Assembly: GCF_018861005.1 (NCBI RefSeq)
Contig: NZ_JAHKQL010000004.1
Location: 18,183-82,182 of the forward strand
Length of the DNA stretch: 64,000 nt
From: Polaribacter vadi
GTDB taxonomy: Bacteria > Bacteroidota > Bacteroidia > Flavobacteriales > Flavobacteriaceae
Reading direction: 5' to 3'
The position numbers were made by a program, and so were the translations under genes. The notes beneath the pieces were generated by a model that was not told where the DNA came from, did no database searches, and saw only the letters and a program-made list of their open reading frames with translations. Shown here one piece after another: positions 33,018 through 48,252 of the stretch. How positions within the stretch are numbered: position 1 is the stretch's first letter; every line of letters starts with the position of its first letter.

Positions 33018-33812
33018 TTAGATTCTTTTTTTAACAGATTCTTCTAACTTATTTCTAGTAAACATATCCAATAATCCTCCTTCTGTTAAGTTTATTATTT
33101 CGATACCTTTTTGCTTTGATGCTTCTGCTAGTTTTTGTAATTCTCTTAAATGCCTGCTATGCATATATAAATCTATTACATAATTTTTACTAGTTTTGAT
33201 ATTATTTTCTTCATTTACACCATAAAAATGACTTTGATGATTTATCAACTCATAAGCCAGACCGTTAGCATCAAACCCTGTAAAACAGATCTTCTTATAT
33301 CCACAAAACATGGATGCTTCAAAACAATACCCAGAAACTCCTATACATTTAAAAGGTGTATCTAAAGACATCCATAGAAATTTCACTCCTTTTTCTTTAT
33401 AAGGTTTTAACATTTCTAAATGATACCAATCTACCGGCATTATAAAAGTAATATCGGGTACCATTGTTAATATTTCATCCAACCAAGTAATCGGCCATTC
33501 TCCTGTCTTTAGCTTAGCATCTACAAATACATGAAACTTTGGTTGCAACAGATGGTACAATTCATGTTTAAACCCTCTATTTACAAACATTATATCTTGC
33601 CCTTGTAATACAGACAAATCTTGTTTTTTAAGTGAAGGTCCATTTAAAATAATGTAAACTTGATTTACATTGGTGCTGTTTTTATACTGCTTTTTCATTC
33701 TCAATAATACTTTTTGCTTCCCAAATGACAAACGATTTTTTAAAGTGACTATGCTGTTCATAGTTTTAATGATAAAATCGTCTTTTCTGATCATTAATTG
33801 CCAAAACCCCAT
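33018..33812 (-). CDS. GT42 (sialyltransferase)/DUF115-like protein
   Basis: A soluble protein of 264 residues. Motifs in order match those I know from the Campylobacter CstII sialyltransferase fold: NGPSLKKQDL at 57-66, SGYCFEASMFCGYKKICFTGFDANG at about 160-184 (compare SGVYMCAVAIALGYKEIYLSGIDF), SHFYG at 194-198 with candidate catalytic His195, and a final KGIEIINLTEGGLLDMF. GT42 enzymes use CMP-activated 2-keto acid sugars, and a CMP-sugar synthetase-like gene lies in this array. Remote DUF115 relatives include proteins of other roles, so the donor is inference. Confidence 0.6.
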   Translation of the reverse strand: MGFWQLMIRKDDFIIKTMNSIVTLKNRLSFGKQKVLLRMKKQYKNSTNVNQVYIILNGPSLKKQDLSVLQGQDIMFVNRGFKHELYHLLQPKFHVFVDAKLKTGEWPITWLDEILTMVPDITFIMPVDWYHLEMLKPYKEKGVKFLWMSLDTPFKCIGVSGYCFEASMFCGYKKICFTGFDANGLAYELINHQSHFYGVNEENNIKTSKNYVIDLYMHSRHLRELQKLAEASKQKGIEIINLTEGGLLDMFTRNKLEESVKKRI

Positions 33813-34874: not shown

Positions 34875-36398
34875 TCAAATAATTTTTTTTATTAATTTAA
34901 CTATTCTATAAATTATTATGTAAGTTATTACACTTTGCCAATAATAGCGAACACAATACCCAAAATCTATTAATATACCATTTGCATTTCTAAACATTCC
35001 TAAAAAAACAAATGCATTCATTAAACCAAATAAAGAATAATGTACTTTATAAGCTTTAATATAAACAAAGGTATTGAGTAAATAAAAAACAAGTATATTT
35101 AGAATGAATTGTATTGGAAAATAAAAATAACTAAAAGTTGCTAAACCATCACCAACATGACTAGTTACTACAAAATTACCAAGAGTGCCACCAGATAGTA
35201 AATCACCTCTGCTGTATTTATTACTTTCTTTATTAAATTTTACACCAAAAAAATTTAAAAAAGGACTAGGAAAAACTAATATTAATTGATTCCAAAAATC
35301 GGTCTGTAACTTTTCACTACCATAGCCTAATCTATTTGCATGATATAATGTTTCATCAGATATCCTCATATTAGCATATCGATTTAACATAAAATTATCA
35401 ATGTATTTTTCTGTCCAGCCTAAACTATAAGAACTAACTTCATTAGACCTTTCTTTTCTATCAAATTTAATTTGCTCTAATAATTTTTTATTGTTATATG
35501 TTTTTAAAGTTTTCTGTAGTAATTCTGTTTTAGAAACGTCAGACCTTATTGATCTATTATATAACATAGCATAGGACATATCAGACAACATATCCAAACC
35601 AAAAACAACTAAAAAAACTAAAACTAACAAAAGGCGAGGTGAAATAATTTCTTTAATTTTTAAATTATTTTTTACTAAAAATAAAAAAAACAAAAGAAAA
35701 CATACGCCTATAGGTGCAATCATTGCTGCTCTGCTATTTGAGGCTAAATTAACTATAAAAATAATTACAAAATAAATCCAAACTAATTTCTTATATCCAT
35801 ATCCCTCTTGACCTATTAACTTTGGAAAAAATAATATTAATGGTGCATAATATAAATAAAGAATACCATCTAAAAATTTACCTCCCACATTACCATACTC
35901 TGATTGTCCAGCACTAAATATATAAAGCCTTACTAAAAAACCTATACTCCCTAACAACCAAATAATTTTTGGATTGGTATCAAAAAAATTATTTTTATTT
36001 AAGATTTTTTGAAGTGCATTATTTTTATATTTCAAATTTGCAGATAAATAAAAGGCAAATGAACTGATAGAAAAGAGCAATAACTCGAAAATAAAAGTTT
36101 CAATAGGTCTTTCAAAACCGAGAGATATTGGGTTACCTTCTATTAATGTTGCAATTAAAGGAAGGTATCTGTACATAAACATTGAAAGATAAAAAAAGAA
36201 AGCAAAAGGTGTGTAAACTACATATTTAACTCTTAAAAAATTACGAAATATTAAAAAACTAAAGAATGTCATTAAGCAACCTAATAAGTTTGCTAAAGAC
36301 GGGAAAAGTAATAACTCTAAAGTAATGGATATAATTAAAATTATACCAAGCCATTTCCGTAATTGTTTAAGAATAAATATTTTATTTTTATTTTTCAT
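34875..36398 (-). CDS. wzy: O-antigen/capsule polymerase (Wzy-like)
   Basis: A highly hydrophobic protein of 507 residues with about twelve membrane helices and a large loop near residues 275-360 (LYNRSIRSDVSKTELLQ ... MRISDETLYHANRLGYGSEKL). Low similarity between such proteins means that topology and context carry the call. A flippase gene and many glycosyltransferases surround it and no other polymerase candidate is present. It would link repeat units at the periplasmic face of the inner membrane. It overlaps the neighbour gene by 11 bp. Confidence 0.75.
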   Translation of the reverse strand: MKNKNKIFILKQLRKWLGIILIISITLELLLFPSLANLLGCLMTFFSFLIFRNFLRVKYVVYTPFAFFFYLSMFMYRYLPLIATLIEGNPISLGFERPIETFIFELLLFSISSFAFYLSANLKYKNNALQKILNKNNFFDTNPKIIWLLGSIGFLVRLYIFSAGQSEYGNVGGKFLDGILYLYYAPLILFFPKLIGQEGYGYKKLVWIYFVIIFIVNLASNSRAAMIAPIGVCFLLFFLFLVKNNLKIKEIISPRLLLVLVFLVVFGLDMLSDMSYAMLYNRSIRSDVSKTELLQKTLKTYNNKKLLEQIKFDRKERSNEVSSYSLGWTEKYIDNFMLNRYANMRISDETLYHANRLGYGSEKLQTDFWNQLILVFPSPFLNFFGVKFNKESNKYSRGDLLSGGTLGNFVVTSHVGDGLATFSYFYFPIQFILNILVFYLLNTFVYIKAYKVHYSLFGLMNAFVFLGMFRNANGILIDFGYCVRYYWQSVITYIIIYRIVKLIKKII

Positions 36399-38677: not shown

Positions 38678-40033
38678 TTATTTTTTACTTACAATTTTTT
38701 TTATGGCCATATTTAAATTTAATCCTTGAAAAATCTCTATAAATTTCATCTCCATCATACTTATACTTTTAGGAATAATTATAAATGCCATAATTATATC
38801 TAAAATAATAGCTCCTATTGCTGCACCTAATAAACCAAAACCTGAAGATAATAGATAAGTAAATATTACAGATACAATTGCGCTAATTACACCTGCAATA
38901 GCAAAAACATATGGTTCATTTTTTGCTCTGAATATAGGTTCTGAAGACCACCAAAGAGAATTAAACAATATACCTATTAAAAAAACATACCATACAGACG
39001 GTTCTACATACAATTGTTTTTGTGTCCATATTCCATAAAACCACAGACCAAACACTGCTAAAAATATTACTCCTAAAACAGAAAGTATAAAAGAAGAAAG
39101 TACACCTATTTTAAAAATTTTATTCGCTTTAGATGTATTTCCAGCACCAATTTCGTATTGCAATTCAGGAAAAATACTAGAACTGATTATATTTAAAACT
39201 TGATTTACAGACCTACTTAATGTGCGTACTGTATTAAATACAGCTACTGACTCAGGTCCCAAGACAATTCTAACCACAAAAGTAGTACCTTGAAAATAAA
39301 TAGCTTGCCAACCTGGAAACAACATGTATCCAATACCTTTGGATGTTATATTTTTTATTTCTAATTTATCTTTAATTCCTTTGTATTTATGAAATCCTTC
39401 CAACATTTTACTCCCTCTATACCAATAAAAAAAATTAAAGAATACGATTACAATTAACTGAGAAATAGCAAAAGCAACTATACCATATCCAAATAAAAGT
39501 ACTAACATCCCTGCACCCAAATTTAACAAAGATTTTAAAGTTTGTAAGTTAATACTTAAAGATGCTTTTCTTGCTGATCTATAATAGGATTCTATAAGCT
39601 GCGTGTAAAAATTTAAAAATCTAGCTAATATCAAAACAGAAACAGCAATTATAGCATCGTATTTTTCAATAATCGATTTTTCGAAAACATCAAAATGATT
39701 AAGTATCAATAATACTACTACGCTTACAAACATTGCTATAACTAACATAGTAGAAATTATCCTAATAGCTGCTTTGTTTATATTAGCGGCCTTTTGTTTT
39801 TGACCCGATGCATATGCTAAAACAAAACTATTGGCAGCTGCAGAACCAAAACCTAAATCAGAAAATGCAAATACACTAGGTATTATTGTAAGTGTTAACC
39901 ATTCACCATAGTAAGCAGCACCCCAGCTAGTGATAAAAAAAGGCACTAAAAATAGCTGTTCTAACATTCTTACACCTCTTGTAAGTATAGAAGCAAAACC
40001 ATTTTTTAAAATATTTTTTTTTACTGTAGACAT
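38678..40033 (-). CDS. wzx: Polysaccharide flippase (Wzx-like, MOP family)
   Basis: A 451-residue membrane protein with about twelve to fourteen helices and the MOP/PST pattern at the N-terminus (NGFASILTRGVRMLEQLFLVPFF, ITSWGAAYYGEWLTL, FSDLGFGSAAANSF). It moves the undecaprenyl-linked repeat unit to the periplasmic face for Wzy. It is the only flippase candidate in the array. Its 5-prime neighbour is the HAD phosphatase gene. Confidence 0.9.
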   Translation of the reverse strand: MSTVKKNILKNGFASILTRGVRMLEQLFLVPFFITSWGAAYYGEWLTLTIIPSVFAFSDLGFGSAAANSFVLAYASGQKQKAANINKAAIRIISTMLVIAMFVSVVVLLILNHFDVFEKSIIEKYDAIIAVSVLILARFLNFYTQLIESYYRSARKASLSINLQTLKSLLNLGAGMLVLLFGYGIVAFAISQLIVIVFFNFFYWYRGSKMLEGFHKYKGIKDKLEIKNITSKGIGYMLFPGWQAIYFQGTTFVVRIVLGPESVAVFNTVRTLSRSVNQVLNIISSSIFPELQYEIGAGNTSKANKIFKIGVLSSFILSVLGVIFLAVFGLWFYGIWTQKQLYVEPSVWYVFLIGILFNSLWWSSEPIFRAKNEPYVFAIAGVISAIVSVIFTYLLSSGFGLLGAAIGAIILDIIMAFIIIPKSISMMEMKFIEIFQGLNLNMAIKKIVSKK

Positions 40034-40040
40034 AAAATTA

Positions 40041-40673
40041 TTAAAAATTAGTGTTTAAAACATTTAAACTAGGAATATATCCTCCATCTAATTTATTTAA
40101 TTCTTTATTATTATACCCATAGAAATGAATATTATTGGCCTTAGCAGCTTCATAATCATTGATTGAATCTCCAATTAAACATGTTTCTCTTAAAATATAA
40201 TTATGATTTTTTAATAAATTTTTAACCAATACTTTTTTGGGAGTAGGTGAACCTTCAATAGATAAAAAATAGGGTGTCAAACCTAATTCTTTACATAAAA
40301 ACCGTAATTCTTCTCCGTCAGAACCTGAAACAATATGAAAATGATACTTTTGATAATTTGATTTGATAAATGATACAGCATCTAATATTAGATTTTTAGG
40401 GTTTGTTAATTCCTTTTTCATTAACACAGAAAAATTTTCTGCATAAAGCATTACTTTTTCTTCTGTAATACTTTCACCCAAAATATTTTCATAAAAATAT
40501 CTGATTTTCACATATCTAGACAGTCCTCCATTAGCACGATGATATTTTAATAGTTCTGAAACTTGTTGAGCATCAAAATTTTTAAAAATCTCTTCGAAAC
40601 CCCAATCTCTAACAACCATCGAATCTAAAATGACACCATCAAAATCCCACAATATGTTTTTTTTATTGAACAT
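40041..40673 (-). CDS. HAD-family phosphatase
   Basis: About 210 residues from ATG 40673; a GTG two codons upstream is also possible. HAD motifs are clear: ILWDFDGVILDS (nucleophile Asp and acid Asp), VSGSDGEEL (motif II), and CLIGDSINDYEAAKANN (motif IV). It has a helical cap like beta-phosphoglucomutase/Gph. It overlaps the cytidylyltransferase gene by about 11 bp, so a linked role such as removing the phosphate from a keto-acid sugar before CMP activation is likely but inferred. KdsC-type enzymes do this in Kdo synthesis, although they have no such cap. Confidence 0.82.
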   Translation of the reverse strand: MFNKKNILWDFDGVILDSMVVRDWGFEEIFKNFDAQQVSELLKYHRANGGLSRYVKIRYFYENILGESITEEKVMLYAENFSVLMKKELTNPKNLILDAVSFIKSNYQKYHFHIVSGSDGEELRFLCKELGLTPYFLSIEGSPTPKKVLVKNLLKNHNYILRETCLIGDSINDYEAAKANNIHFYGYNNKELNKLDGGYIPSLNVLNTNF

Positions 40674-41352
40674 CAACACTGTATTTTAATTTGTACACCA
40701 TTTCTGCTAATAAAAAATCATCGGGCCAATCTACATCTATTTTTTCATAGCCTTCTGATTGTAACAAATAAGGTTTATGACCAATTCTATCTTTTAAATT
40801 TATGTAATTATCTCTTTTATTAATAAAATAACCACTATTAATTTCATATAAAGGAGCTAAAGTTTGTGTTCTAGGCCACTTTTCTTTATCTCTGTCATAA
40901 TTGTTGGGTTTACCATCTTCATTCCATAAAAAAGTTTGAATTTTATTCACCGTCATTAAGCTATCGTAACCTTCATCTAAATTTTCATAATATTTTTTAA
41001 TTCCTCTGTTCAATGAATCGGAAGTAATAAAAGGAGAAGTTACGTGAGTCCATAAAATGTGCTCATCTTCAATTATAGTCGGTACATAATCTACCAAATC
41101 ATCTGTACTGGTAGATGATAATGCTAAATGTTCTGGTCGAATATCAATTGAAATTTTCTTGTGAGGAATAGCTTCTGCAATATCGATAACTTTTTGGTCA
41201 TTGGTAGAAAGAACGATTTTATCAACCAAAGTAGCATTAATTAAACTACGTAACTTTACTTCTAATAACCCCCCTTCGATACCAGCAAATTCTTTGGTAT
41301 TCTTGTTGGGTATCCTTTGGCTACCTGCTCTACATGGTAAAAATACGGTCAT
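40663..41352 (-). CDS. CMP-sugar synthetase-like cytidylyltransferase (NeuA/KdsB-like)
   Basis: A 229-residue nucleotidyltransferase. The N-terminal signature FLPCRAGSQRIPNKNTKEF is the CTP-binding motif of CMP-Neu5Ac and related synthetases, and IVLSTNDQKVIDIA and LWTHVTSPFI follow in the expected order. These enzymes couple CTP to a 2-keto-3-deoxy acid sugar such as a nonulosonate or Kdo. No neuB-, neuC- or kdsA-like gene is in the array. Its neighbours are a phosphatase and two aldolase-like genes. The exact sugar is unknown. Confidence 0.85.
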   Translation of the reverse strand: MTVFLPCRAGSQRIPNKNTKEFAGIEGGLLEVKLRSLINATLVDKIVLSTNDQKVIDIAEAIPHKKISIDIRPEHLALSSTSTDDLVDYVPTIIEDEHILWTHVTSPFITSDSLNRGIKKYYENLDEGYDSLMTVNKIQTFLWNEDGKPNNYDRDKEKWPRTQTLAPLYEINSGYFINKRDNYINLKDRIGHKPYLLQSEGYEKIDVDWPDDFLLAEMVYKLKYSVDVQ

Positions 41353-41423
41353 AGTAATGTGATATTTGTTTACTTATAACAAAAAAAAATGGCCTTAGAT
41401 TTTCTTATTATTGATTATATATT

Positions 41424-42191
41424 CTATTTCTTATTTAACTGAGTTACCACCTTTTTAAATGCATCTAAAACAATACCCACATCTACTGCATAAGAAATAT
41501 ATTGCACCCCTATTTCTTTCCACATTTTAGCATCTTCAAATGATTCTGTAAAAGTACCCATCATTTTTCCATTTTCCTGTGCAATATTTATTGCTTTTTT
41601 CATTGTTTCTATAACTTTGTTGTGTTTTATTTCACCGGGAACACCACATGATTGCGACAAATCATAACATCCTATAAAAATAATATCGATTCCTTCTACT
41701 TGAACAATCTCCTTTAAGTTTTCTATACCTTTTAAACCTTCAATATGAATAATGGTAGCTATAGAATTGTTTGAGTTTTTAAAATAATCTGCACTACTTA
41801 CATTCGTATATTCAGCAGCACGAACATATCTACACATACCTCTATTACCTATCGGATAAAATTTGGTACACTCAACTACTTTTTGAGCATCTTTTACCGT
41901 TGATACTTGTGGCACTTGAATGCATTTTACACCTATATCTAACAGTCGTAAAATAAGTGTTTCGTTATTTTCCGTTACACGAACTACCGGTACAATTCCT
42001 TTAGCTTCAGCTGCTCTTATCATATTTTGTACGGAAGTAACATCATGCGGCCCATGTTCCATATCAATAATAATAAAATCAAAACCGCTTAAAGCCGCAA
42101 GTTCTATAATTGTAGGATCTTGCATTTTACAAAAAGGTCCATAAAGAAATTTTTGATTAGTTATTTTATCGATAAGTATGTTCTTTTTCAT
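41424..42191 (-). CDS. HpcH/HpaI-family aldolase
   Basis: A class II pyruvate-type aldolase with a TIM barrel, 255 residues. Residues expected from E. coli HpaI/GarL are present: His46 (DMEHGPHD), Arg71 (VVRVTEN), the metal ligands Glu151 (HIEGLKG) and Asp177 (IGCYDLSQ). It should therefore be active. The family joins pyruvate or a like donor reversibly to an aldehyde to give a 4-hydroxy-2-keto acid. No aromatic degradation genes are nearby, so a biosynthetic role for a keto-acid sugar is my inference. Confidence 0.87.
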   Translation of the reverse strand: MKKNILIDKITNQKFLYGPFCKMQDPTIIELAALSGFDFIIIDMEHGPHDVTSVQNMIRAAEAKGIVPVVRVTENNETLILRLLDIGVKCIQVPQVSTVKDAQKVVECTKFYPIGNRGMCRYVRAAEYTNVSSADYFKNSNNSIATIIHIEGLKGIENLKEIVQVEGIDIIFIGCYDLSQSCGVPGEIKHNKVIETMKKAINIAQENGKMMGTFTESFEDAKMWKEIGVQYISYAVDVGIVLDAFKKVVTQLNKK

Positions 42192-42247
42192 ATATATTTA
42201 AAAAGTAGTCAATAGGCAAGGTCTTCTTTATTTTTCTATCTCCCTTT

Positions 42248-43789
42248 CTATATCAAACTATAAATAGAAGATACGTTTACATTTTTATACTTCGTTGGTG
42301 TCAAAAATTCTATTTGCACACCTCCTGTATTCATAACATCTTCCAAGATAATTTGATTTTCTCTTGCCATTACAAACTGATTTTGATTTAAACTTAAATC
42401 GTATCCATCAAAACCAATATAGTACAAGTGATTCACCCCTAAATCAATGGCTATTTGAGTTGCTATAGCCATAGGTGATTCTGTATCTAAATCAGTAAAA
42501 GTAATTCTTTCCAACTCTTTTGATACTTTTATTATGCTATCAGGGATAGTTGTTCCCATTTTACGAGGGAAAGGAGGATACACACATACTTGTGTTACTT
42601 TAGAAAAATCACCAATTTGTTTTAATAACTTTTCACTTTCAAAACCTACCAAACCATAGTACTGGTCACAGTCAATGTCTAAATATTCTGTTACTTGGCG
42701 TGTACCCGCATGAATTAAACACGCATCTTGTCCTGCACCTTCAAAAAATTTCTTTACAGCTGTTTTGTGTTCTTTGGCAGTTTTACCTCCTCCTAAAATT
42801 ATAGCTTTACTATATTTAGACTCTTTTTTTAATGTAGCTAACTTTAAATTATCTGCGACTTCTTGTTTTTTATTATTTAATGCATTGATAATACTACCCA
42901 AAGGATAACGATTCATCCCCACCCATTCCATCACTTGTTTTTGTGGCAAAGATTTGGCTCCAGAAAACATATAAGGCAAACTTGTACCCCATTGATAATG
43001 CTTACGCATCTCTTCAAACTCACTAACTACACTACTTAACTCATTATACGCAATCGGTAAGTTTTCTGCACTTTCTAAATAGGTAAGTAATAATTCTGTT
43101 TTTAAATTTCCTGCTCCACGTCCCATACCCGTAATTGTGGCATCTAAAATCTCACAACCAGCCTCTTTTGCTGTAATAGTATTGATAAGTGCCATTTCTA
43201 GATTATCATGTCCATGAAAACCAATGGGTACACTTGTTTTACTACGGACCATAGTAATGGTATCTTTTACATCTTGTGGCATTACTCCACCATAAGAATC
43301 TACCATATAAAAATAATCAATCACATCATCTACCCCAACTAAAGCATCTAAAAAAGAAGGATCATTTTTCCAATTAGACATGTACATTACATTAAATGCC
43401 ACCTCAAAACCGGCCGCCTTTACTGTTTTTGCCAATTCAATTGCACGCACCATATTTTTAGGATCAATCGCCATACGAACCATAGCTACATATGGTTTAC
43501 AAGGATCTAACAATCCCTCATCTATATGCGAAGACCTTATATCTTTTTCATTTAAGATAATGACCAACTTTTTATTAGGCATTAAACTTTTTAGTCGTTT
43601 CAAAACATATTCTGGACAGTAAAAGTACTCGCCTAAATATCCTTTCATCGCCATACTTCGATATCCTACTTCCACATAATCAATGGGTAAAGCCTCCATT
43701 GCTGCAGCATACTCTGCCACCAAAGCTTCATCAAAATCCCAGTTCGTATAATAACCTCCATCTCTTAGTGTGCAATCTAATAATTTCAT
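42248..43789 (-). CDS. DRE-TIM aldolase fused to a GT42/DUF115-like C-terminal domain
   Basis: A 513-residue two-part protein. Residues 1 to about 300 are a HMGL-like metallo-aldolase: LLDCTLRDGG (Arg9-Asp10), the metal pair His192-x-His194 (GFHGHDN) and GMGRGAGN near 221-228, closest in pattern to 4-hydroxy-2-oxovalerate aldolase. Residues about 328-513 are different: AIILGGGKTAKEH, ESPMAIATQIAIDLGVNHLYYIGFDGYD and a closing VQIEFLTPTKYKNV resemble, in order, the motifs of GT42/DUF115 proteins. The function of this fusion is not known to me. It lies upstream of the HpaI-like aldolase gene in the same array. Confidence 0.75.
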   Translation of the reverse strand: MKLLDCTLRDGGYYTNWDFDEALVAEYAAAMEALPIDYVEVGYRSMAMKGYLGEYFYCPEYVLKRLKSLMPNKKLVIILNEKDIRSSHIDEGLLDPCKPYVAMVRMAIDPKNMVRAIELAKTVKAAGFEVAFNVMYMSNWKNDPSFLDALVGVDDVIDYFYMVDSYGGVMPQDVKDTITMVRSKTSVPIGFHGHDNLEMALINTITAKEAGCEILDATITGMGRGAGNLKTELLLTYLESAENLPIAYNELSSVVSEFEEMRKHYQWGTSLPYMFSGAKSLPQKQVMEWVGMNRYPLGSIINALNNKKQEVADNLKLATLKKESKYSKAIILGGGKTAKEHKTAVKKFFEGAGQDACLIHAGTRQVTEYLDIDCDQYYGLVGFESEKLLKQIGDFSKVTQVCVYPPFPRKMGTTIPDSIIKVSKELERITFTDLDTESPMAIATQIAIDLGVNHLYYIGFDGYDLSLNQNQFVMARENQIILEDVMNTGGVQIEFLTPTKYKNVNVSSIYSLI

Positions 43790-47330: not shown

Positions 47331-47774
47331 TTATGCTTTTTTAGACTTTACTTCCTCTTTTAAATTTTCTTTTTCTTGTACTTCTCTTCGTAAACCACTG
47401 CTCGAAAAACGGTGCTCTCTTTTATTGTAAAATAGTTCTATTCCAGATTCTTCGCAATATTTACGTCCTGTATATTGTTTGTTCATATATTCATCCCCAA
47501 CAATACGCACATCTATTTTAAAAGAACGTAACACATCTTCTAAATCTTGCTCTGTAGCATAAGGTACAATCTCATCCACAAACTTGCATCCTTTTAATTG
47601 GATGTAGCGTTCTACTACAGATTGAATCGGTCTATTTTTTTCTGGACGATCTAAGGTTGGGTCGGTTTGCAAACCACAGATTAAATAATCACATTCTTGT
47701 TTTGCGTCTTCTAACATTTTTACGTGCCCTGCATGAAACAAATCGAAAGCACTGAAAGTAATACCAATTTTCAT
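47331..47774 (-). CDS. Cytidylyltransferase-family protein (TagD-like)
   Basis: A 147-residue HxGH nucleotidyltransferase. The N-terminal GITFSAFDLFHAGHVKMLEDA, DPTLDRPEKNRPIQSVVERY, and the C-terminal RFSSSGLR (like ISSTxLR) match glycerol-3-phosphate cytidylyltransferase (TagD) in order, and the length fits. It would make a CDP-linked product such as CDP-glycerol, but the substrate is inferred. No glycerophosphotransferase gene is recognisable in the array. It lies 3 bp upstream of ugd. Confidence 0.82.
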   Translation of the reverse strand: MKIGITFSAFDLFHAGHVKMLEDAKQECDYLICGLQTDPTLDRPEKNRPIQSVVERYIQLKGCKFVDEIVPYATEQDLEDVLRSFKIDVRIVGDEYMNKQYTGRKYCEESGIELFYNKREHRFSSSGLRREVQEKENLKEEVKSKKA

Positions 47775-47823: not shown

Positions 47824-48252
47824 TTACTCCTTGCCTTTAAGCAACCAGGAAGAAGATTGTATTTTGTCACCTAAACCATCGATTAAGGCTACACCCAATT
47901 CTTTACATGTAGGCACTTCTGGAATAGAGTTGTTATTTTGATCTCCACCATTAGCAAAAGCAAAATCATAGGCATCCCCATATTCTTTGACCAAATGCGC
48001 AATACTTGCACAAACAGTACGATCTTGATCTACAGAAATAATCGCATTGTCTACGGCTTTGATATTACTAACTATAATCAAACGTTCGTCTTCTTTTTGA
48101 AATGCTTTAGAACCTTTTAACTCCCTTTGTAAATCACTGTTTACAATTACAAATAGCTCATCAGCTAAGGATTTGGCATTATTGAAGTACTCTAAATGCC
48201 CTTTATGAATAGGATTAAAATAACCAGAAACGATAATTGCTTTCTTTTTCAT
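47824..48252 (-). CDS. Second HxGH nucleotidyltransferase (RfaE/TagD-like)
   Basis: A 142-residue protein with IIVSGYFNPIHKGHLEYFNNAKSLADELFVIVNSD, the HxGH nucleotide-binding motif, and LKGSKAFQKEDERLIIVSNIK, DQDRTVCASI and FANGGDQNN. The pattern resembles the C-terminal nucleotidyltransferase of HldE/RfaE and its relatives. It is distant from its neighbour and so is not a recent duplicate. It would activate a sugar- or polyol-phosphate; the substrate is unknown. Confidence 0.78.
   Translation of the reverse strand: MKKKAIIVSGYFNPIHKGHLEYFNNAKSLADELFVIVNSDLQRELKGSKAFQKEDERLIIVSNIKAVDNAIISVDQDRTVCASIAHLVKEYGDAYDFAFANGGDQNNNSIPEVPTCKELGVALIDGLGDKIQSSSWLLKGKE

Follow-up and report, generated by a model that had tools for sequence, protein, structure and literature searches.

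An aldolase gene cassette of Polaribacter vadi and its relatives as a probable NeuB- and KdsA-independent route to a CMP-ulosonic acid

Results

Genes of the cassette

We analysed a 64,000-nucleotide stretch of the Polaribacter vadi genome (contig NZ_JAHKQL010000004.1, positions 18,183 to 82,182; hereafter the window), in which four adjacent genes at 40041-43789 encode a two-domain HMGL-like protein, an HpaI-type aldolase, a cytidine monophosphate (CMP)-sugar synthetase and a HAD phosphatase (Table 1). All four open reading frames (ORFs) were intact and exceeded their Pfam cut-offs, and those of the synthetase and the phosphatase overlap by 17 bp. An earlier note, made from the sequence alone, had assigned these families to this span, and both the ORFs and Pfam agreed with it; it had left out the 196-residue second domain of the HMGL-like protein, the rarity of the HpaI gene among related loci and a GT42/MptE-like gene in the same cluster. 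To our knowledge, the established routes to CMP-ulosonic acids (sialic, pseudaminic and legionaminic acids and 3-deoxy-D-manno-octulosonic acid, Kdo) all begin with a phosphoenolpyruvate (PEP)-dependent synthase of the NeuB/KdsA type. As the note had stated for the gene array, neither NeuB nor KdsA was found in the window; the same genome carries one NeuB (contig C12) and one KdsA (contig C2). The comparisons described below suggested that the cassette probably represents an aldolase-based route to a CMP-ulosonic acid that is independent of NeuB and KdsA.

Table 1. Features of the cassette and of the surrounding polysaccharide cluster in the window.
Feature	Position	Strand	Basis
HAD phosphatase (HAD_2 type), proposed ulosonate-phosphate phosphatase	40041-40679	minus	Pfam HAD_2 53.1 bits
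NeuA/PseF-like CMP-sugar synthetase (cytidylyltransferase)	40663-41352	minus	CTP_transf_3 (PF02348) 51.6 bits, cut-off 22.6
HpaI-type class II aldolase, accessory, outside the conserved core	41424-42191	minus	HpcH_HpaI 119.7 bits
HMGL-like two-domain protein, 513 aa	42248-43789	minus	HMGL-like 86.0 bits
HMGL-type (DmpG-like) metal aldolase domain, residues 1-316, proposed carbon-chain builder	42842-43789	minus	Pfam, fold
C-terminal domain of the aldolase protein, residues 318-513, predicted Maf/GT42 (MptE-like) fold	42251-42838	minus	AlphaFold2 model, fold search
GT42/MptE-like protein (LNGPSLK ... GFDANG), candidate CMP-ulosonate transferase of the cluster	33018-33812	minus	Profile comparison
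Wzx-like flippase	38678-40033	minus	Matches below Pfam cut-offs
Wzy-like polymerase/ligase	34875-36398	minus	Match below Pfam cut-off

A conserved unit of three genes

The HMGL-like protein was used as the query against 84,980 species genomes, and 68 loci of fairly close relatives were obtained; the retrieval patterns contained YYTNWDFD, so that the conservation of this motif is partly a selection effect. The loci belonged chiefly to Bacteroidota, and also to Alphaproteobacteria, Campylobacterota and Paenibacillus. A synthetase gene was located near the aldolase gene in 65 of the 68 loci and a HAD relative in 55. An HpaI gene was present in five loci besides the window, lying in those five between the aldolase and synthetase genes. 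The conserved unit is therefore composed of three genes, encoding the two-domain HMGL-type aldolase, the CMP-sugar synthetase and the HAD phosphatase. The set of four, which the earlier note had taken as the unit, was ruled out by the same HpaI count, and this count makes the HMGL-type enzyme the conserved candidate for building the carbon chain. The closest relatives of the window aldolase were those of L005 (73% identity, KdsB-type synthetase) and L007 (70%, PseF-type), both lacking HpaI; because these and most other loci are without it, HpaI is an accessory enzyme in a minority of cassettes. His46, Arg71, Glu151 and Asp177 of HpaI, correctly recognized in the note, correspond to the catalytic residues of PF03328 and did not vary among the six HpaI proteins of the cassettes. 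The score of 176.7 bits was below the cut-off of TIGR02311 (4-hydroxy-2-oxoheptanedioate aldolase HpaI; 368.8).

In the window's family, 10 of 299 genomes carried the aldolase, as did 9 of 395 genomes of its phylum, and a distant blastn search of Escherichia coli genomes gave no match. Two copies of the aldolase gene lie ~20 kb apart in one genome of the phylum (G441, contig C1, 3156604-3158142 and 3177214-3178749). In Streptomyces iakyrus (L067:7842-9008), the match was confined to the barrel (query residues 1-277, 34% identity), and no synthetase was found near it. In Chitinophaga ginsengisegetis, a gene for a BNR-repeat (sialidase-like), lipoprotein-like protein (L020:10351-11514) is inserted between the cassette synthetase and HAD genes.

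Two domains of the aldolase protein

The N-terminal domain is a barrel with the Asp and His-x-His metal ligands characteristic of the HMGL-like superfamily (PF00682). These residues (Asp10, His192 and His194) were invariant in 58 aligned relatives, including those from HpaI loci. The nearest solved structure was 3dxi (Z 45.4, 53-54% identity), the N-terminal domain of BVU_2661 from Bacteroides vulgatus, which belongs to the same protein family but comprises the barrel alone and is described as a putative aldolase. 4-Hydroxy-2-oxovalerate aldolases came next (Z ~31), and coenzyme A (CoA)-dependent synthases ranked lower (Z 25-26). Sequence scores were 99.8 bits for the 4-hydroxy-2-oxovalerate aldolase versus 54-58 bits for the synthases; the former match reached residue 316, whereas the latter ended near residue 267. 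The cut-off of TIGR03217, which defines 4-hydroxy-2-oxovalerate aldolase, was missed (83 bits versus 286). The barrel fold, the Arg-Asp-Gly motif and the His-x-His metal site are shared with DmpG and BphI. Unlike these enzymes, which have a dehydrogenase partner, the window aldolase has no adjoining aldehyde dehydrogenase gene, lies in an anabolic gene context, is fused to a second domain and carries Tyr13 in place of the catalytic His.

No Pfam match was obtained for the 196 C-terminal residues, and this domain was modelled alone with AlphaFold2 (predicted local distance difference test score 94.5), as the fold search with the whole model was dominated by the barrel. The best match of the model was Maf 5mu5 (Maf_flag10; Foldseek E 7.1e-5; Z 15.4 over 183 residues, root-mean-square deviation 3.1), followed by the distant relatives SteA and HPPK (~12), CstII (Z 11.6) and CstI (Z 11.4). 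The domain is thus predicted to have the fold of the Maf/CstII CMP-ulosonate transferases. Sequence comparison agreed weakly with this kinship: the C-terminal profile found CstI first in PDB (E 0.19, not significant), in an alignment that paired G-x-D-x-Y, and a profile-profile comparison with stand-alone GT42-like proteins gave 95% over 32 columns. Maf flagellin glycosyltransferases and the GT42 enzymes CstI and CstII may also be related to the GT42/MptE-like protein of the cluster. They differ from the fused domain in that GGG stands in the latter where the nucleotide-binding motif GNGPS is expected (58 relatives), and a transferase role would be putative. The domain probably binds a CMP-ulosonate, either to sense it for feedback or to transfer it. 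A Maf enzyme can use both CMP-N-acetylneuraminic acid (CMP-Neu5Ac) and CMP-Kdo (PMC11339370).

Types of the CMP-sugar synthetase

The window synthetase belongs to the NeuA/KdsB superfamily (PF02348) and contains the P-loop-like motif RAGSQRIPNKN and the motif DVDWPDD. His103 (WTHVTSP) occupies the position of Gln104 in CMP-Neu5Ac synthetase, where the substitution Q104A raised the Km for Neu5Ac ~40-fold (PMC2901514). This replacement points to a sugar other than Neu5Ac as the probable substrate. Among those proteins in which this site was covered by the motif scan, His was common to the usual PseF-type enzymes of the cassettes (L025: WVHTTSPF) and was absent from L015 and from the synthetases paired with HpaI in other loci.

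Among the 68 loci, the synthetase was KdsB-like in 28 and NeuA/PseF-like in 38, one locus having both kinds. Three KdsB-type enzymes tested (L005, L009 and L010) scored 267, 258 and 270 bits against the CMP-Kdo synthetase cut-off of 255. On the aldolase tree, KdsB-type and PseF/NeuA-type synthetases were exchanged at least ten times, counting the changes forced by well-supported branches. Both families transfer CMP to a 3-deoxy-2-ulosonic acid. Since the two types interchange and share this activity, the product of the cassette should be a CMP-ulosonate.

In all 13 KdsB-type genomes, the cassette KdsB came in addition to a housekeeping copy. Among PseF-type genomes, a single KdsB was found in P. 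vadi itself and in each of three other Gram-negatives tested, and none in Paenibacillus. A single branch (support 87/87) separated 28 cassette from 17 housekeeping KdsB proteins, and the cassette KdsB of Methylobacterium, an alphaproteobacterium, was grouped among the Bacteroidota cassette copies.

Occurrence without NeuB or KdsA

In 36 cassette genomes, a strong NeuB match was found in 26, no match in eight and only weak partial matches in two. Of the two weak matches, one (19 bits) falls within the KdsA of its genome, and the other (34 bits), in Paenibacillus, is probably a DAHP (3-deoxy-D-arabino-heptulosonate 7-phosphate) synthase. Ten of the 36 are therefore without a true NeuB; no NeuB was found in two cassette genomes of the window's own family (G220 and G262). 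The two genomes without a KdsA match were those of Paenibacillus paeoniae and Rhodohalobacter (L041). P. paeoniae possesses the aldolase, the synthetase and the HAD protein, and neither NeuB nor KdsA was found in it, though an assembly gap is possible for a single genome. The earlier note had proposed that a neuB- or kdsA-like gene always co-inherited with the cassette would speak against its reading; these genomes showed no such constant partner.

The NeuB of P. vadi is located in a separate polysaccharide locus on C12 (L073:7353-9638), next to a HAD gene and a CTP_transf_3 gene of its own, so that this locus looks self-contained. It was accordingly rejected as a hidden partner of the cassette; P. 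vadi probably makes a second ulosonic acid there by the usual route.

Sialyltransferase-type genes and the surrounding cluster

Genes of sialyltransferase type occurred near 29 of the 68 cassettes (GT42/MptE-like in 15 loci, GT29-like in 6 and polyST-like in 8). PF07388 was over its cut-off in the one polyST-like member tested, and PF00777 in all six GT29-like cases (L018, L021, L022, L032, L043 and L057), which usually directly follow the HAD gene; L022 has two. The GT29 family has been described as eukaryotic (PMC5811610). In 30 genomes of the window's family, a sialyltransferase-type gene lay within ~10 kb of the cassette in five of the ten cassette genomes, whereas one of the 20 others had any copy, beside NeuB (Fisher p 0.009; cassette loci were the source of the GT42 profile, and the GT42 part of this comparison therefore leans towards cassettes).

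The GT42/MptE-like protein of the window had no relative in PDB when searched alone and gave 13.6 bits to PF01973 (cut-off 34.6). As a profile with 11 relatives, it matched CstII at E 1.9e-9, and it is a candidate for the enzyme that transfers the CMP-ulosonate in this cluster. When the profile search was iterated from this protein, it reached the aldolase C-termini; as iteration can drift, the fold search and the comparison of profiles were relied on in its stead.

The cluster is of the Wzx/Wzy polysaccharide type, and also contains genes for Wzc-like and Wza-like proteins, an initial sugar transferase and several glycosyltransferases. Two adjacent small CTP_transf_like genes (PF01467, glycerol-3-phosphate cytidylyltransferase type) lie at 47331-47774 and 47824-48252, and this pair perhaps provides a cytidine diphosphate (CDP)-alcohol for the same polymer.

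Discussion

Here, we propose a pathway model for the cassette. The HMGL-type metal aldolase would condense pyruvate, as its enolate, with a sugar aldehyde (probably a phosphorylated aldose), and the HAD enzyme would then remove the phosphate. The NeuA/PseF- or KdsB-type enzyme would charge the free keto acid with cytidine triphosphate (CTP), and an enzyme of the sialyltransferase superfamily, in the window probably the GT42/MptE-like protein, would add the activated sugar to the repeat unit before export by Wzx/Wzy. The aldol reaction is reversible and would be drawn towards its product by the last steps. The idea of the earlier note that an aldolase makes a CMP-activated 2-keto acid sugar without NeuB or KdsA thus received strong comparative support, but its "new" sugar may be a known ulosonic acid that is reached by a new route. 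A 3-deoxy-pentulosonic acid, suggested by a Klebsiella polymer, was considered as the product and set aside, as a literature search yielded nothing of use on it.

Several observations weigh against this model. Where DmpG-type aldolases have their catalytic His, the HMGL-type protein has Tyr13, which is invariant in the 58 relatives (RDGSH of 4lrs aligns with RDGGY), and the chemistry may therefore differ from that of DmpG-type enzymes. The window synthetase is far under the PseF cut-off (TIGR03584; 68.9 versus 205.7 bits), and in 13 of the 68 loci no HAD gene lies closer than 4.5 kb. The recurrent neighbours of the cassettes comprised only nucleotide-sugar, transferase, export and flanking genes, and none of them points to a particular sugar aldehyde. 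The HpaI enzyme of the window is not accounted for by the proposed steps. Finally, KdsA is present in 34 of the 36 cassette genomes because of lipopolysaccharide, and Kdo is available there.

This last point, together with the strong NeuB in 26 of these genomes, would suit a different explanation, in which the synthetase makes CMP-Kdo or CMP-sialate specifically for the capsule, from the product of the housekeeping KdsA or of a distant NeuB, and the HMGL-type and HAD proteins make an unrelated decoration of the polymer. E. coli indeed has a second CMP-Kdo synthetase for its capsule, K-CKS beside L-CKS (PMC2901514), and offers a precedent. We nevertheless regard this explanation as unlikely: neither NeuB nor KdsA was found in P. 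paeoniae, which has the cassette, the aldolase and synthetase genes stay adjacent in 65 of 68 loci despite the changes of synthetase type, the aldolase itself bears the Maf/GT42-like domain, and the cassette KdsB proteins form a branch of their own.

It is quite improbable that the HMGL-type protein is instead a CoA-dependent synthase of the isopropylmalate/homocitrate type, making a branched dicarboxylic acid that the synthetase activates as such or as a derivative. Such synthases belong to the same superfamily, and homocitrate, isopropylmalate and citramalate synthases were matched too; those regulated by their end products have a C-terminal domain behind the barrel, which the fused domain recalls. 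However, sequence score, fold ranking and match length all favoured 4-hydroxy-2-oxovalerate aldolase, and KdsB-type synthetases activate a 2-ulosonate, not malate. We give still less credence to a chain built by HpaI wherever it occurs (the window and five similar loci), with the HMGL-type protein acting mainly via its C-terminal domain: the HpaI catalytic residues are complete and the five other loci have a divergent synthetase subgroup, but the metal ligands of the HMGL barrel are kept in all 58 relatives, HpaI loci included, most cassettes lack HpaI, and the window pairs it with the common type of synthetase.

The aldolase-based route shares with the CMP-Kdo pathway (KdsA, KdsC and KdsB) the order of chain building, dephosphorylation by a HAD enzyme and activation with CMP, and its synthetase is KdsB-like in 28 loci. 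It differs in having the HMGL-type aldolase in place of the PEP-dependent KdsA, in the separate branch of its KdsB, and in its phosphatase, whose HAD_2 type does not imply identity with KdsC. With the nonulosonate pathways, in which NeuB works with NeuA, PseF or LegF, the cassettes share NeuA/PseF-like synthetases and nearby sialyltransferase-type genes; they differ in that NeuB is absent from the window and a true NeuB from over a quarter of the cassette genomes. No description of an aldolase-based ulosonate or CMP-sugar pathway was found in the open-access papers searched. Our claim of novelty rests on this absence and on that from the curated family libraries used.

More tentatively, the two-domain protein may represent a new class of enzyme, in which a pyruvate aldolase of HMGL type and a CMP-ulosonate domain of Maf/GT42 type, joined in one chain, would start, and also end or sense, a PEP-independent pathway to an undescribed ulosonic acid of surface polysaccharides in several phyla; we hold this as a possibility somewhat short of even. 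The fused domain poses a directly testable structural question. If the proposed route is true, the orphan structure 3dxi would gain a function, and a new aldolase would become available for the synthesis of acidic sugars. NeuB serves as a genomic marker for ulosonic acid sugars, and surveys based on it would then miss producers in the family and phylum of P. vadi (10 of 299 and 9 of 395 genomes) as well as in Proteobacteria, Campylobacterota and Firmicutes.

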